Shown: positions 18,942 through 36,656 of the stretch, piece by piece | How the letters are laid out: every line of letters begins with the position of its first letter | Position numbering within the stretch: the first letter of the stretch is position 1 | Assembly (NCBI GenBank): GCA_016183305.1 | Contig: JACPEW010000026.1 | Location: 1 to 38,833, forward strand | Direction of reading: 5' to 3' | Length of the DNA: 38,833 nt | DNA from: Candidatus Daviesbacteria bacterium | GTDB lineage: Bacteria; Patescibacteriota; Microgenomatia; Daviesbacterales; UBA10151 | The notes under the pieces: generated by a model | The model's input: the letters and a program-made list of their open reading frames with translations, nothing else | What the model was told of the DNA's origin: nothing | Database searches by the model: none | Made by a program: the position numbers and the translations under genes

Positions 18942-21128
18942 GTGGACTCAAAAGATTTGTTAGTTCCTCTCAATTTAGGTATTGTTGGCTATGGGTTTGT
19001 GGGCCAGGCTGTAGCTAATGGCTTTAATGTTTCCTCAAAAGGCAAGGATATTATCCGCTACTATGATAAATTCAAAGATACTTTATCTTTAGAAGAAGTT
19101 ATTACCAAATCAGAAGTGATAGTAGTAGCCTTGCCTACCCCTATGAGAGAGGATGAATCTGGGATAGATTTAACTATTTTGGAAGAAATGGCAGGGGAGA
19201 TAACTAAATTTACAGATAATACAGATAAGATAATTTTAATTAAATCCACAGTAATCCCAGGCACAACAGCTGCTTTAGAAGAAAAATATCCCAAATCCCA
19301 TTTTGCCTTTAGCCCGGAATTTTTAACAGAGGCTAATTTTTTAGAAGATTTTATCAATGCTGACAGGACCATAATTGGGGCTAGTAATGATTTAGTTTCC
19401 AGAAGGCTGGCTGTTATTTTTAAACAAAGGTTTCCTAAAACAATAATTTTCCAAACAGACCCAACCACAGCAGAAACAGTTAAGTATTTTGCTAATGCTT
19501 ATCTTTCTTTAAAAGTTACTTTTGCTAATTTTATGTATGATTATTGTCAAAAAAAGGGAATTAAGTATGAGGAAGTTAAAAAAATGGCTGCCATAGACCC
19601 AAGGATTATTGATGCTCATTTAGAAGTTACTACTATGAGGGGGTTTGGGGGGAAATGTCTAGCTCCGGAAGAAAGGATATTTGCTTTTAATAGCAGCAAG
19701 CTGAAAGTTATAAGGGCCAAAAATATAAACAATAAGGTAGTTGGAGTTTTGGGATGGAAGGATGGAAAAATCATCAAAGATGATTTGATGATTGCAGGCT
19801 CTAGAAAAGTTGACCATTTGCTTAAGTTCTCTCTTTCTAAAGGCAGGGACCTAACTGTAACATCAGACCATATTATGATCGTTGCTGATAAAGATGGCAA
19901 TTTAAGCCAGAAGGAAGCATTCGAGGTTAAAAAAGATGATTATATCCCTGTAATCTTAGATGGACTTAAAGAACCGCAGGCAAAAGAACATAAAGTAGCT
20001 ATTAAATTATACAAGGAAGTTGATTTATCCAAATATAAAACATTTGTAGAAAATCTGCCTAAATCTCATGCGGGATTGCTAAAACCTTACCTATCTTTTC
20101 ACCAATATAAATCATCTGCCCGTAAAAGAGTATACTCCGTACCTCTTAAAGCCTGTTTGGATGCTGGGATTAATATTGATTCACTGCGGATTAAAACAAA
20201 TAAAACCGGGACTTGGGTTCCAGCAGTTATCCAGGTAAATGAGGATTTTGCCAGACTTGTTGGATACTATTTATCAAAAGGTTGTGTTAGTGATGGCAAG
20301 GTATTTATTTCCTTTTCTTTTTTAGAAAAGGATTTGATCCTAGATGTTAAAAATATCTTACAAAGTTTAAATATCAAATTTAGTATGCAAACACTTTATT
20401 GGCAAGGCCATGAGAACGCAGTTAACATAAAGATTTCCTCTCCCATTTTATCTTCTTATTTTTCAAGCTTTGGCACTAATTCCTCAAATAAAACTATCCC
20501 CTATTTTATTTTTCATTCAAATCAAGCAATTAAAGATAATCTCCTAGCAGGTATCCTAAGAGGAGATGGCTCTATATTTTCTTCCAATATGGGTAATTAC
20601 TGGACTGTTAATTTATCTACTACCAGCCAAATCTTAGCAGAAGGAGTTGATGCTTTACTTAGGGAAAAGGGCATTTTAGCCAATATAGGAACTGTTAAGA
20701 CTGCAAAAACTAAAAGTTATGTTTGGTCATTAGATGTTTCTGAGCGGGAGAGCGTACAAAAGCTTTTATTACTTTTTACTCCCGGACAAAGGTCTAAAGT
20801 TAAAGAGACAGGAATAAGGATAATCAAATCACCTGCTTATTCAAAAATTAGAAATCTTGCTTTACTTAATATTAAAAACATTGAAAATATTCAAAAATCC
20901 AGTCTCGTTTATTCAATAGAAACTAAAAACCATTATTACATTACCTCCTGGGGAATACTAACCCACAACTGTTTTCCAAAAGATTTAGTAGCTTTAATAG
21001 GGGAGTTTAAAAAAGCAGGAGTGGATTCCTCACTTTTGGAAACTATGTGGAAATACAATAAAAAAATCAGAAAAACCCATGATTGGGAAGAGATACCTTT
21101 TGTAGTAGGAAGCAAACCAAAGCATTAG
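18942..21128 (+). CDS. UDP-glucose/GDP-mannose dehydrogenase family protein with intein
   Basis: A 728-aa precursor. The extein (residues 1-238 plus 677-728, 290 aa) begins with the Rossmann motif GIVGYGFVG (13-21) and continues through SPEFLTEANFLEDF (124-137) to RGFGGK, directly joined after splicing to CFPKDL, which rebuilds the family active-site motif GGxCFPKD. The enzyme oxidises a UDP-sugar C6 alcohol to the acid using NAD. At 290 aa it has the NAD-binding and central domains but not the usual C-terminal UDP-binding domain of 430-450 aa members, so it may be a short lineage-specific form or may act on another substrate. The start is GTG, with a strong promoter placing transcription at it. 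Confidence 0.88.
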   Translation: MDSKDLLVPLNLGIVGYGFVGQAVANGFNVSSKGKDIIRYYDKFKDTLSLEEVITKSEVIVVALPTPMREDESGIDLTILEEMAGEITKFTDNTDKIILIKSTVIPGTTAALEEKYPKSHFAFSPEFLTEANFLEDFINADRTIIGASNDLVSRRLAVIFKQRFPKTIIFQTDPTTAETVKYFANAYLSLKVTFANFMYDYCQKKGIKYEEVKKMAAIDPRIIDAHLEVTTMRGFGGKCLAPEERIFAFNSSKLKVIRAKNINNKVVGVLGWKDGKIIKDDLMIAGSRKVDHLLKFSLSKGRDLTVTSDHIMIVADKDGNLSQKEAFEVKKDDYIPVILDGLKEPQAKEHKVAIKLYKEVDLSKYKTFVENLPKSHAGLLKPYLSFHQYKSSARKRVYSVPLKACLDAGINIDSLRIKTNKTGTWVPAVIQVNEDFARLVGYYLSKGCVSDGKVFISFSFLEKDLILDVKNILQSLNIKFSMQTLYWQGHENAVNIKISSPILSSYFSSFGTNSSNKTIPYFIFHSNQAIKDNLLAGILRGDGSIFSSNMGNYWTVNLSTTSQILAEGVDALLREKGILANIGTVKTAKTKSYVWSLDVSERESVQKLLLLFTPGQRSKVKETGIRIIKSPAYSKIRNLALLNIKNIENIQKSSLVYSIETKNHYYITSWGILTHNCFPKDLVALIGEFKKAGVDSSLLETMWKYNKKIRKTHDWEEIPFVVGSKPKH
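19656..20969 (+). mobile_element. Intein (438 aa) with LAGLIDADG domain
   Basis: Residues 239-676 of the precursor. Block A starts with Cys239 (CLAPEERIF). Block B is LTVTSDHIMI with the TxxH set Thr307 and His310. Block F is VYSIETKNHYYITSWGI, and block G ends THN (674-676) before Cys677. All splicing residues (Cys1, TxxH, terminal HN, Cys+1) are present, so splicing should work. Between them is a LAGLIDADG endonuclease with motifs at LVGYYLSKG (439-447) and LLAGILRGDG (534-543). The first motif has Lys where the catalytic Asp belongs. Confidence 0.93.
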
Positions 21129-33331: not shown

Positions 33332-33883
33332 TTAAAACTTGACTGAAATATCTGCTTTTTCTTCTTCTCCCGCTTTGAAGAATTCTTCCTTTTGGAAGTT
33401 AAAAATAGATCCTACCCAGGCAGAAGGAATAGTTTCTAAATTATTATTTAAATCTAAAACATTAGTATTATAAAATTGCCTGGAAGCTGCTACTTTAGTT
33501 TCAGTATCAGAAAGCTCATCCTGGAGTTGTTTAAAGTTTTCTGAAGCTCTAAGTTGGGGATAGTTCTCAGCAACAGCAAACAGGGATTTTAAAGCCCCTG
33601 ATAACATATTATTGGCATCTGCTGCCTGATGAGGATCTTTTGCTCCCATTAAAGCTGTTCTTGCCTTAGTTACCTCTTCTAAAACTCCTTTTTCGTGCTT
33701 TGCATAACCTTTAACTGTTTCAACCAGGTTAGGAATTAAAGAGGATCTTCTTTTAAGCTGAACATCAATTTGGGACCAGGCTTCTCTAACTCTATTTCTA
33801 AGAGTTACTAAGGAATTATAAGTAGCAAGCAGCCATAAAATTGTTAAAACAACTATCCCAATAACAACGTATGTTGTAATCAC
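33332..33883 (-). CDS. lemA: LemA family membrane protein
   Basis: A 183-aa protein with one N-terminal membrane helix (3-22) and a long helical domain. [20 protein letters not shown] (26-45) and [21 protein letters not shown] carry the family signature. The role is poorly defined and often linked to HtpX-type proteases. The start is GTG, overlapping the polX stop by 4 bp. Confidence 0.95.
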
Positions 33884-35628
33884 ATCTTTATATTAAACCA
33901 ATCTGTAAAACTTGTCCAGTCCCAGGTATTAACAATATCTTTTTTAGTTACCCAGCCTCTTCTAGCAACAGCTACGCCAAACCTCATATTATCCATCTGG
34001 GAAACTTGATGGGCATCAGTATTAATAATAAACTTAACTCCAAACTTTAAAGCTTGTCTTATTAAATCATCTCTTAGATCCAATCTATTAGGATAAGCAT
34101 TTATTTCCAGTAGTTTCTTATTTTTAGCAGCTAACTTAAAAATTGTTTCCCAATCAATAACTGATGATTCCCTTTCATTAATCAATCTGTTAGAAGGATG
34201 GGAAATTATATCTACATAAGGACTCTCCAAAGCTTTAATTAATCTATTAGTAATTTTTTCTTTTAAAGAATGGTGGCCACTATGAATTCCAGCAATACAA
34301 TAATCAAGCATTGCTAAAGCCTCTTCAGGAACACTTAAAGAACCATCACCAAGAATATCTATTTCAAGTCCATTTAGTACCCGGATACTTTTTGTCCTCA
34401 GGTGTAAACTATGGATAAATTTTGTCCTCTTTTCTGTCCATTTAGTTATTTGCTCCTTGCTAACTGATGTAAAACCCGGAGGATGGTCAGAAATACCCAC
34501 ATAACTATATCCTAAACTTATAGCTTTTTTTACCATTACTTCTACTGGATCAACCCCTGGGCCATGGGAAGGATTTGAAATAGGATAACTGGAATGCAGA
34601 TGAAGATCGCCCTTAATATCTTCAAGTTTAACTAGGTTTGGTAATTTATGCTCTACAGCTGCTTCAATCTCCCCTGTATCCTCTCTTGTCTCTGGCGGGG
34701 GAGTCTGCATGCCAAGTAAACTATAAAGCTCCTCTTCTGTCTCGCATCTAATAATTCCATTATTTTGACTTTTCTTTATTCCATACTCACTGACTGAGTA
34801 TCCTTTTTGCTGAGCATACGTCCTCAAATGAATATTATGGCTTTTAGAGCCTGTGAAGTGCTGCAAAAGGGCTCCAAAACTATCAGGCTGGCCAACTAAT
34901 AAATCAGCTTGGATACCACTTTTAAGTACCACTGTAGCCTTGTTTTTCCCCTGGTCTAAAACTCTAACAATACCAGGAATCCTGCAAAAATAATCTACTA
35001 CTTCCTGAGAAGAATTTGAGCTGACAGCAAAATCCAAATCCCCTATTGTTGCCACCATCCTTCTTAAAGATCCCAAAGGATAAACTTGTATTACTGCTGA
35101 ATTCTTTTTTAAATATTCTAATATTTTATCTGCCTGGGCAGCTGCATATGGTAAAAGCATCCTATGATCTCTTTGATCTAAACTATGAAAGCCAAACATA
35201 ATTTTTTGGGCAATTTTGGCAGAAAATCCTTTGTCTACCAGTTCCCCTGTTTTAATTTGTTTTCTTAATTCTCCTAAATTTTTTACTCCCAATGAAGCTA
35301 TACTCTGAGCAGTTTTTGGTCCGACACCAGGAATATCTAAAAGCTCAAAAATAATTTGTGGTATTCCCTCTTCTACTTTCTCAAAATGTTTAACTTTACC
35401 TGTGGTAAACAACTCATTCAAATACTCTTGCAGTTTAGCTCCTAAAGCTGGAATTTGAGATAATTTTCCTTCCTGCCAAAGATCTTCTACCTCAGCAGTT
35501 GAGTGTTCAATAGAGGATGAAGCATTTTCATAGGCTCTGATTTGGAATATATTACCCACACCTTTAATGGTATAAGCAGCAGCTACATTTTTGAGGATCT
35601 TAGCCAGCTGTTGATTAGAGAATTCCAT
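33880..35628 (-). CDS. polX: DNA polymerase X family protein with PHP domain
   Basis: A 582-aa repair polymerase. The ATG at 35628 gives the normal N-terminus [19 protein letters not shown]; the frame is open 25 codons further up but those overlap the divergent endonuclease gene. The 8-kDa-like domain and helix-hairpin-helix ([17 protein letters not shown]) precede the palm with [17 protein letters not shown], whose DLD supplies the metal ligands. The C-terminal PHP domain has [12 protein letters not shown] and [11 protein letters not shown], as in bacterial PolX with 3'-5' exonuclease activity. A weak promoter (CTGCAA, 17 bp, TATATT at 35643-35638) precedes it. It heads the minus-strand run. 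Confidence 0.94.
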
Positions 35629-35692
35629 ATTAATCGTAATATAGCACTTATTGACAATGCTTGCAGTATGTTTTAACTTATAGATAACCCAA

Positions 35693-36391
35693 ATGAAACC
35701 CAAAATCTCAAAGCGTTGGCCAGAGCGATCTGTTGAAACTTTCTTTGATATCTGGAACCCAGATATGGCTTATGTGCTTGGTTATTTCGCTGCTGATGGA
35801 TCCATGTATCAAAATAAGCGAGGCTCTTGTTATATTGCTTTTACTTCCACAGATAGAGATCTTATAGCTCAAGTCAAGAATATCATGAAAGTATCAAATA
35901 GAATTGAAGTCTACCAGGCTAAAGAGAAACCTAATCAGAAATTAAGATATACTTTGCAAATTGGCAGTAAATCAATTTTTGGCAAATTACTCAAACTCGG
36001 GTTCACTCCTAACAAAAGTTTAACTCTAAAGTTTCCTCCAGTTTCAGATGATCTTATAGGTCATTTCTTACGCGGGTATTTTGACGGTGATGGCTGCGCC
36101 TCATTTGTATACTACAAGCGTAAAAATAGGAAAAACTTACAAAGAATCCTAAATATGAGAATAAGATGTGGTAGTAAAGAATTTATCCAAATACTTCAAA
36201 ATAAACTTGCTGAAATAAAACACACTAAAGGGTTGTTATATTTCCATAGTGGCGCCTACGAACTAGTATATAGAGCTAAGGATGTGATAAAATTGTACAG
36301 CTTTGCGTACCCTACTTTAGTTGTACCTTGCTTAAAAAGAAAAAGAGATATACTAATAAAGGGACTTAAAGCATTTAATGTGGGGCCGTAG
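35693..36391 (+). CDS. Free-standing LAGLIDADG homing endonuclease next to an intron-bearing tRNA
   Basis: A 232-aa protein with two LAGLIDADG motifs, VLGYFAADG (28-36) and LRGYFDGDG (126-134). Both keep the metal-binding Asp (35 and 133), so it is a monomeric two-motif enzyme that looks catalytically intact. No splicing blocks are present, so it is not an intein. The reading frame ends ...NVGP-stop, and its last ten bases (36382-36391) are the first ten of the mature tRNA-Asp. The tRNA carries a group I intron with no reading frame of its own, so this enzyme is the best candidate to mobilise it from outside. A TTGACA (35651) upstream has no strong -10. Confidence 0.88.
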   Translation: MKPKISKRWPERSVETFFDIWNPDMAYVLGYFAADGSMYQNKRGSCYIAFTSTDRDLIAQVKNIMKVSNRIEVYQAKEKPNQKLRYTLQIGSKSIFGKLLKLGFTPNKSLTLKFPPVSDDLIGHFLRGYFDGDGCASFVYYKRKNRKNLQRILNMRIRCGSKEFIQILQNKLAEIKHTKGLLYFHSGAYELVYRAKDVIKLYSFAYPTLVVPCLKRKRDILIKGLKAFNVGP

Positions 36392-36656
36392 CTCAGTTGG
36401 TTAGAGCGCCTCCCTGTAGAATTGCAGCTCCCAAAGGAAACTTTGGGATGAATAATTCTGGGATAACGGTGAAGGCTAAAGTCTTTAAGATATGCAAATA
36501 CCGTGGGAATCCATTTAGGGTGGAGCGCCGTAGAGACTAGATACCAGAATACCTAAATCTTATTTCAAGATAAGGTAAAGATATAGTCCATGCCAATATG
36601 AAAATACTGGAGACCATGCACGGAGGAGGTCGCGGGTTCGAGTCCCGTCGGCCCCG
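36382..36656 (+). tRNA. tRNA-Asp (GUC) split by a group I intron
   Basis: Exon 1 is 36382-36417 and exon 2 is 36619-36656, giving a 74-nt tRNA. The acceptor is GGGGCCG/CGGCCCC, the D arm GCTC/GAGC, and the anticodon stem CCTCC/GGAGG has the loop CTGT|CAC with anticodon GTC. The variable loop is AGGTC and the T arm GCGGG-TTCGAGT-CCCGT. Discriminator G73 and the loop CTGTCAC match Asp identity. CCA is not encoded. The intron lies between U35 and C36. The only nearby promoter-like site is TTGCTT/TATACT (36328-36354, 15-bp spacer) inside the endonuclease gene, so co-transcription is likely. Confidence 0.93.
36418..36618 (+). other. Group I intron in tRNA-Asp anticodon
   Basis: A 201-nt intron. 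Exon 1 ends in U and the intron ends in G (36618), as group I requires. P1 is CUGU (36414-36417) with GCAG (36424-36427), giving the U-G pair at the splice site. P2 is CCCAAAG-GAAA-CTTTGGG (36430-36447). P3 is ATTCTGG (36455-36461) with CCAGAAT (36544-36550). P4 is ACGGT (36466-36470) with ACCGT (36500-36504). P7 is GACTA (36535-36539) with TAGTC (36584-36588). P8 is CTTAT with ATAAG (36559-36563, 36570-36574). It has no reading frame of its own. The set leaves little doubt; splicing should need no protein or only general helpers. Confidence 0.93.

Follow-up and report, generated by a model that had tools for sequence, protein, structure and literature searches.

Collaborative homing, in which a free-standing endonuclease and a group I intron without an ORF share one target, has been described for phages (PMC3984707). 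In bacteria, introns in the anticodon region of tRNA-fMet carry intron-encoded endonucleases (Bonocora and Shub 2001, as cited in PMC3984707). Furthermore, CPR bacteria have LAGLIDADG endonucleases in their rRNA insertions (PMC11270868). These systems were compared with a locus in the window analyzed here, by which we mean the whole stretch of 38,833 nucleotides (contig JACPEW010000026.1) from a Candidatus Daviesbacteria bacterium. In contrast to the phage pairs, the interrupted gene is a bacterial tRNA gene, the endonuclease gene lies flush with it and reads into it, and cutting of the intron site is putative. As in the tRNA-fMet case, a group I intron resides in a tRNA anticodon loop, and its spread by a homing endonuclease is proposed here. 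There the endonuclease ORF is intronic, whereas here it precedes the tRNA on its 5' side, and an ORF-less intron interrupts tRNA-Asp at 35/36. With the rRNA insertions the locus has LAGLIDADG_3 proteins, group I introns and probably the same kind of host in common; that survey was restricted to rRNA, and a text search did not find the word "tRNA" in its main text (PMC11270868).

Reading frames that enter a tRNA gene are known from Alphaproteobacteria, where selC is nested in selB and tRNA processing was proposed to repress the protein (PMC8124441). There, too, the protein ORF enters a tRNA gene on the same strand. However, selB belongs to the host and encodes the factor that serves this very tRNA, the whole tRNA often lies within the ORF, and neither a mobile nuclease nor several tRNA types are involved. 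For E. coli arfA it was shown experimentally that RNA processing strips the stop codon and that trans-translation limits the product (PMC10107115). In that case RNase III or a terminator is responsible, whereas at our locus it would be RNase P, and what is seen of it are the geometry and a tmRNA gene. In mitochondria, excision of tRNAs sets the ends of mRNAs and can remove stop codons, which are completed by polyadenylation. Excision of a tRNA may strip a stop codon here in a similar way; completion by polyadenylation is a mitochondrial feature, and we know of no such stop repair in bacteria. In open-access literature with few subscription papers among it, no report was found for these bacteria of a homing endonuclease whose gene overlaps the 5' end of a tRNA; this is weak evidence of novelty.

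Overlap of an endonuclease ORF with tRNA-Asp

The ORF at positions 35693-36391 (+ strand) encodes a predicted LAGLIDADG homing endonuclease of 232 amino acids and ends with the codons AAT GTG GGG CCG TAG. The 5' exon of tRNA-Asp(GUC) (36382-36417, + strand) ends at the anticodon base U35, and the 3' exon (36619-36656, + strand) extends to the discriminator base; CCA is absent from the encoded 3' end. ARAGORN in its default mode, which allows no introns, missed the tRNA at 36382. When 36382-36417 was joined to 36619 onward, the same program recognized a canonical tRNA-Asp(gtc). A tRNA-Ala was also considered as the split tRNA and dropped, since proper splice sites were obtained with tRNA-Asp(GUC) only. 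The bases common to ORF and tRNA (36382-36391, + strand) are tRNA nucleotides 1-10, i.e. the last base of the GTG codon followed by GGG CCG TAG. The original prediction had placed the last three codons of the endonuclease including TAG inside a tRNA, and this was borne out: 36383-36391 correspond to nucleotides 2-10 of tRNA-Asp, the stop codon itself (36389-36391, + strand) to nucleotides 8-10. The splitting of this tRNA by a group I intron had not been mentioned. Nucleotide 1 is position 36382, and RNase P is predicted to cut at 36381/36382. The endonuclease frame has no stop codon of its own and borrows the first in-frame stop of tRNA-Asp.

The deduced protein matched PF14528 (LAGLIDADG_3) with 53.4 bits at a cut-off of 22.5 (E 3e-14) and contains the two motifs LGYFAADGS and LRGYFDGDGC. 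In the AlphaFold model (mean pLDDT 90) these form two LAGLIDADG helices with acidic residues (residues 23-35 and 119-133) within a monomer fold. The closest solved structure was that of the archaeal I-Tsp061I (2dch, best Foldseek match). A phage search gave remote LAGLIDADG matches with less than 37% identity among the ten matches listed. Two scans of named genomes yielded no relative of the nuclease and a single distant polX. In the model the complete fold closes with the helix 215-227, before the tRNA-encoded residues, and everything beyond is of low confidence. Of the protein, the tRNA contributes no more than residues 231-232 plus a single base of codon 230. That this tail is a functional part of the protein was rejected, since it is so short, belongs to the low-confidence end of the model and differs in frame among homologues. 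Between endonuclease homologues pN/pS was 0.29-0.47, with saturated synonymous sites in several pairs. This says only that the protein was under constraint in the past.

Elsewhere in the window, a 728-aa ORF (18942-21128, + strand), UDP-glucose dehydrogenase-like by eye, is interrupted by an apparent intein containing a region of the LAGLIDADG type (near 20238-20795).

The group I intron and the history of the tRNA gene

The sequence between the exons is a 201 nt group I intron without an ORF (36418-36618, + strand), located between the anticodon bases U35 and C36. It matched the covariance model RF00028 with 55 bits (E 6e-13, gathering threshold 50), possesses the P1 pairing CUGU/GCAG with a U.G at the 5' splice site, and ends with G. 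Six homologous introns could be aligned and have a conserved core; 31 predicted pairs show changes of both partners in one or more sequences. Among the 373 genomes of the class that were searched, the intron core pattern was found at six places in five genomes, always in tRNA-Asp and always with a free-standing LAGLIDADG nuclease immediately upstream (6/6), as in a collaborative homing pair; at one of them (L026) this nuclease is represented by a C-terminal fragment only. In the order-level sample no tRNA-Asp without a LAGLIDADG nuclease contained an intron. One genome (G025) has two tRNA-Asp genes (L005 and L016); each of them contains an intron and is overlapped by a LAGLIDADG gene of its own, and the two nuclease proteins fall into different parts of the tree. 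The intron is absent at two nuclease-bearing tRNA-Asp loci, L004 with an intact and L014 with a broken nuclease, and numerous Leu loci carry the nuclease and no intron.

The neighbouring polX gene (DNA polymerase beta / PHP; 33880-35628, - strand), which is placed upstream in divergent orientation, in the window as well as in many relatives, served as a marker for the host phylogeny. The polX gene of the window shared 64.7-73% identity with its congeners and at most 65% with other genera in the sample. The tRNA-Asp, compared over about 75 nt, gave the reverse picture with 74-80% identity to congeners and up to 93-96% to other genera. Several of these out-of-genus tRNAs carry a nuclease or the intron, and the D-arm of the window tRNA is unlike that of all five nuclease-free congeners. 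The discordance indicates that the body of the tRNA gene was replaced, most simply along with the cassette. Thus, nuclease, tRNA and intron probably move together.

We consider it likely that the locus is a homing cassette of the collaborative type, composed of nuclease, tRNA-Asp and intron, and that the borrowing of the stop codon results from the flush junction. The nuclease gene lies outside the intron, and its product probably attacks those tRNA-Asp alleles that lack the intron. With the cassette as repair template, nuclease, tRNA and intron would then be copied as a unit, and the intron would subsequently shield the site. Against this account stand the intact nuclease at the intronless L004, the intron-free Leu loci, the weak promoter match and the short length of the tRNA comparison. 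Directly supported are the overlap, the near-fixed junction, the co-occurrence with the intron and the discordant history of the tRNA.

A related explanation makes the tRNA itself the protective part. The nuclease would cut the tRNA gene of the host, and the tRNA of the cassette would be a cut-resistant replacement, carried as cargo, which rescues the cell. The discordant histories of tRNA and polX and the deviating D-arm agree with this, and the intact nuclease next to the intronless tRNA-Asp at L004 indicates that the intron is not the sole possible protection. However, co-conversion of the tRNA during ordinary homing would produce the same pattern, and we regard such a rescue as a tentative, somewhat unlikely explanation. 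With similar hesitation we put forward a wider form of it. Several convergent, mutually unrelated nuclease families of these bacteria with small genomes (LAGLIDADG; GIY-YIG at tRNA-Asp; possibly HNH at tRNA-Phe) might insert flush at tRNA 5' ends, take over the promoter, borrow the stop codon and carry a cut-resistant tRNA, either intron-split or re-coded, as cargo. They would then constitute a natural cleave-and-rescue element on an essential RNA gene.

Transcription of nuclease and tRNA

For the homing cassette, the upstream region suggests that nuclease and tRNA-Asp are transcribed together. Relatives without the nuclease have a promoter region that extends to nucleotide 1 of the tRNA. In a moderate alignment with such empty sites (L033, L052 and L055 were compared), the corresponding upstream part of the window ends at the ATG of the nuclease, which thus occupies the place of tRNA nucleotide 1. 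A candidate promoter (TTGACA-17-TAACTT, 35651-35679, + strand) is found at the position of the tRNA promoter of the empty sites. Its match is weak, it was not called by the consensus scan, and the predicted nuclease message starting from it would be nearly leaderless. Since the nuclease starts where the tRNA starts in empty sites, the most straightforward interpretation is a single transcript initiated at the tRNA promoter, and the promoter geometry suggests that this transcript probably bears both genes.

Alternatively, nuclease and tRNA could be uncoupled neighbours. A tRNA promoter would then reside inside the end of the nuclease gene, and the overlap would reflect tight insertion with no effect on expression. 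Roughly 30-60 nt before the tRNA-Asp of the window, an A/T-rich stretch similar to TTGCTT...TATACT could serve this purpose, but the consensus scan called no forward promoter in the nuclease-gene end before the tRNA. In addition, several Leu loci have the nuclease embedded among clustered tRNAs in the order tRNA-Leu(cag)-nuclease-tRNA-Leu(gag), and this speaks for common transcription. Independent expression of the two genes is rather unlikely in our estimation.

The junction among homologues

Nuclease matches, mostly clear relatives, were obtained from 47 of the 373 genomes. The overlap was counted with HMM-defined ORFs and intron-aware ARAGORN for all clear matches with a same-strand tRNA just downstream (n=29). 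As the original prediction had suggested checking, the overlap recurs in homologous pairs: 23 of 29 extend 10-44 nt into the tRNA. The remaining six end 0, 0, 0, 6, 9 and 12 nt before it. A spacer of more than 12 nt was not observed among the 29. The tRNAs at these loci are specific for Asp, Leu (GAG, CAG, TAG, TAA) and Cys; weaker nuclease matches end in tRNA-Tyr and tRNA-Ser, and one spans an entire tRNA-Ser. A separate set of nuclease relatives (L007, L008, L012, L114, L116, L119, L121) directly follows tRNA-Cys or tRNA-Leu(CAA) and does not precede it, and some members have no adjoining tRNA.

Between the RK motif near the C-terminus, the last conserved motif of the nuclease, and tRNA nucleotide 1, most Leu loci have 40-45 nt and Asp loci 29-38 nt; within a clade this distance hardly varies. 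A spacing of 42 nt occurs alike with an own stop codon (L109) and without one (L010, L021, L096, L103, L107). All three reading frames are used, the stop lies at varying positions of the tRNA, and the broken nuclease copies L014, L019 and L120 have retained the junction. Near-fixed spacing combined with varying frame and stop, and with own stops in some members, argues that the conserved feature is the junction at the DNA level and not the stop inside the tRNA. An effect of this geometry on expression stays compatible with it. As background, 47 tRNAs from fetched loci chosen regardless of nucleases gave one convincing non-nuclease overlap, a 426-aa ORF on the minus strand of L050 which extends 42 nt into tRNA-Val. 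This ORF has a Tat-like signal by eye and no Pfam match, and its stop is likewise borrowed from the tRNA; thus, stop-borrowing is not limited to nucleases.

These data also bear on the original prediction that the overlap is a built-in throttle. In the form weighed here, the stop would be kept inside the tRNA since tRNA maturation destroys the message, so that nuclease synthesis is limited to unprocessed RNA and the rest is tagged by tmRNA. The frequency of the overlap fits this idea, and the genome possesses a tmRNA gene able to handle non-stop messages. Moreover, a comparable proposal exists for tRNA-Sec nested in selB (PMC8124441), and arfA of E. coli is a known case of control by non-stop messages via RNase III (PMC10107115). 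However, in the six flush homologues with the stop outside the tRNA it is beyond removal by RNase P. The frame and position of the stop are not conserved, although conservation would be expected for an arfA-like element, the spacing is independent of an own stop, and broken copies keep the junction. As the purpose of the overlap the throttle is therefore unsupported, and we judge this possible selected function unlikely. Chance overlap or an assembly error, for which the entry of ordinary genes into tRNAs as at L050 could be quoted, can practically be dismissed, since the arrangement recurs with near-fixed spacing in separately assembled genomes of many families.

In the homing cassette the nuclease frame would leave the folded domain directly into the tRNA and take the first in-frame stop there, because the nuclease gene is flush against the tRNA. 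On a shared transcript RNase P would remove this stop and turn an unfinished nuclease message into non-stop RNA. This may reduce the nuclease output, but it appears to be a side effect of the flush arrangement. The recurrence of the junction in relatives from many genomes and at several tRNAs points to a tRNA-riding selfish gene family rather than a designed off-switch.

Other nuclease ORFs and tRNA relics were also observed. Upstream of tRNA-Asp at L024, L038, L043 and L049, GIY-YIG ORFs unrelated to LAGLIDADG proteins have their TAG at tRNA nucleotides 8-10. The L049 protein matched PF01541, and the L024 ORF seems N-terminally truncated. Each of the four is preceded by a truncated tRNA-Asp copy. 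Such relic tRNAs adjoin intact Asp, Val, Arg and Gly tRNAs (L024, L038, L043, L049, L140, L141, L146, L152, L155). They agree with the local tRNA in the D and T arms, whereas an invariant palindrome, TCCGATG(2-3 nt)CATCGGA, takes the place of the anticodon arm. Of the fetched loci with this palindrome, about half are unrelated to tRNA. The relics could represent scars or the termini of a mobile element. At L041 a 159-aa ORF (944-1423) with HNH-like Cys/His motifs by eye and no Pfam match extends 36 nt into tRNA-Phe and may represent a third family of nucleases that has this junction.

Such loci are a warning for annotation, since tRNA and gene calling fail there, as with the tRNA-Asp missed by ARAGORN. 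They also offer a natural test of translation and tRNA maturation competing over the same RNA bases. If the proposed cassette is true, homing endonucleases use tRNA genes as landing sites in uncultured bacteria with small genomes. Nuclease and intron would sit on opposite sides of one exon and move the tRNA along, which bears on the question of how group I introns and endonucleases become associated.
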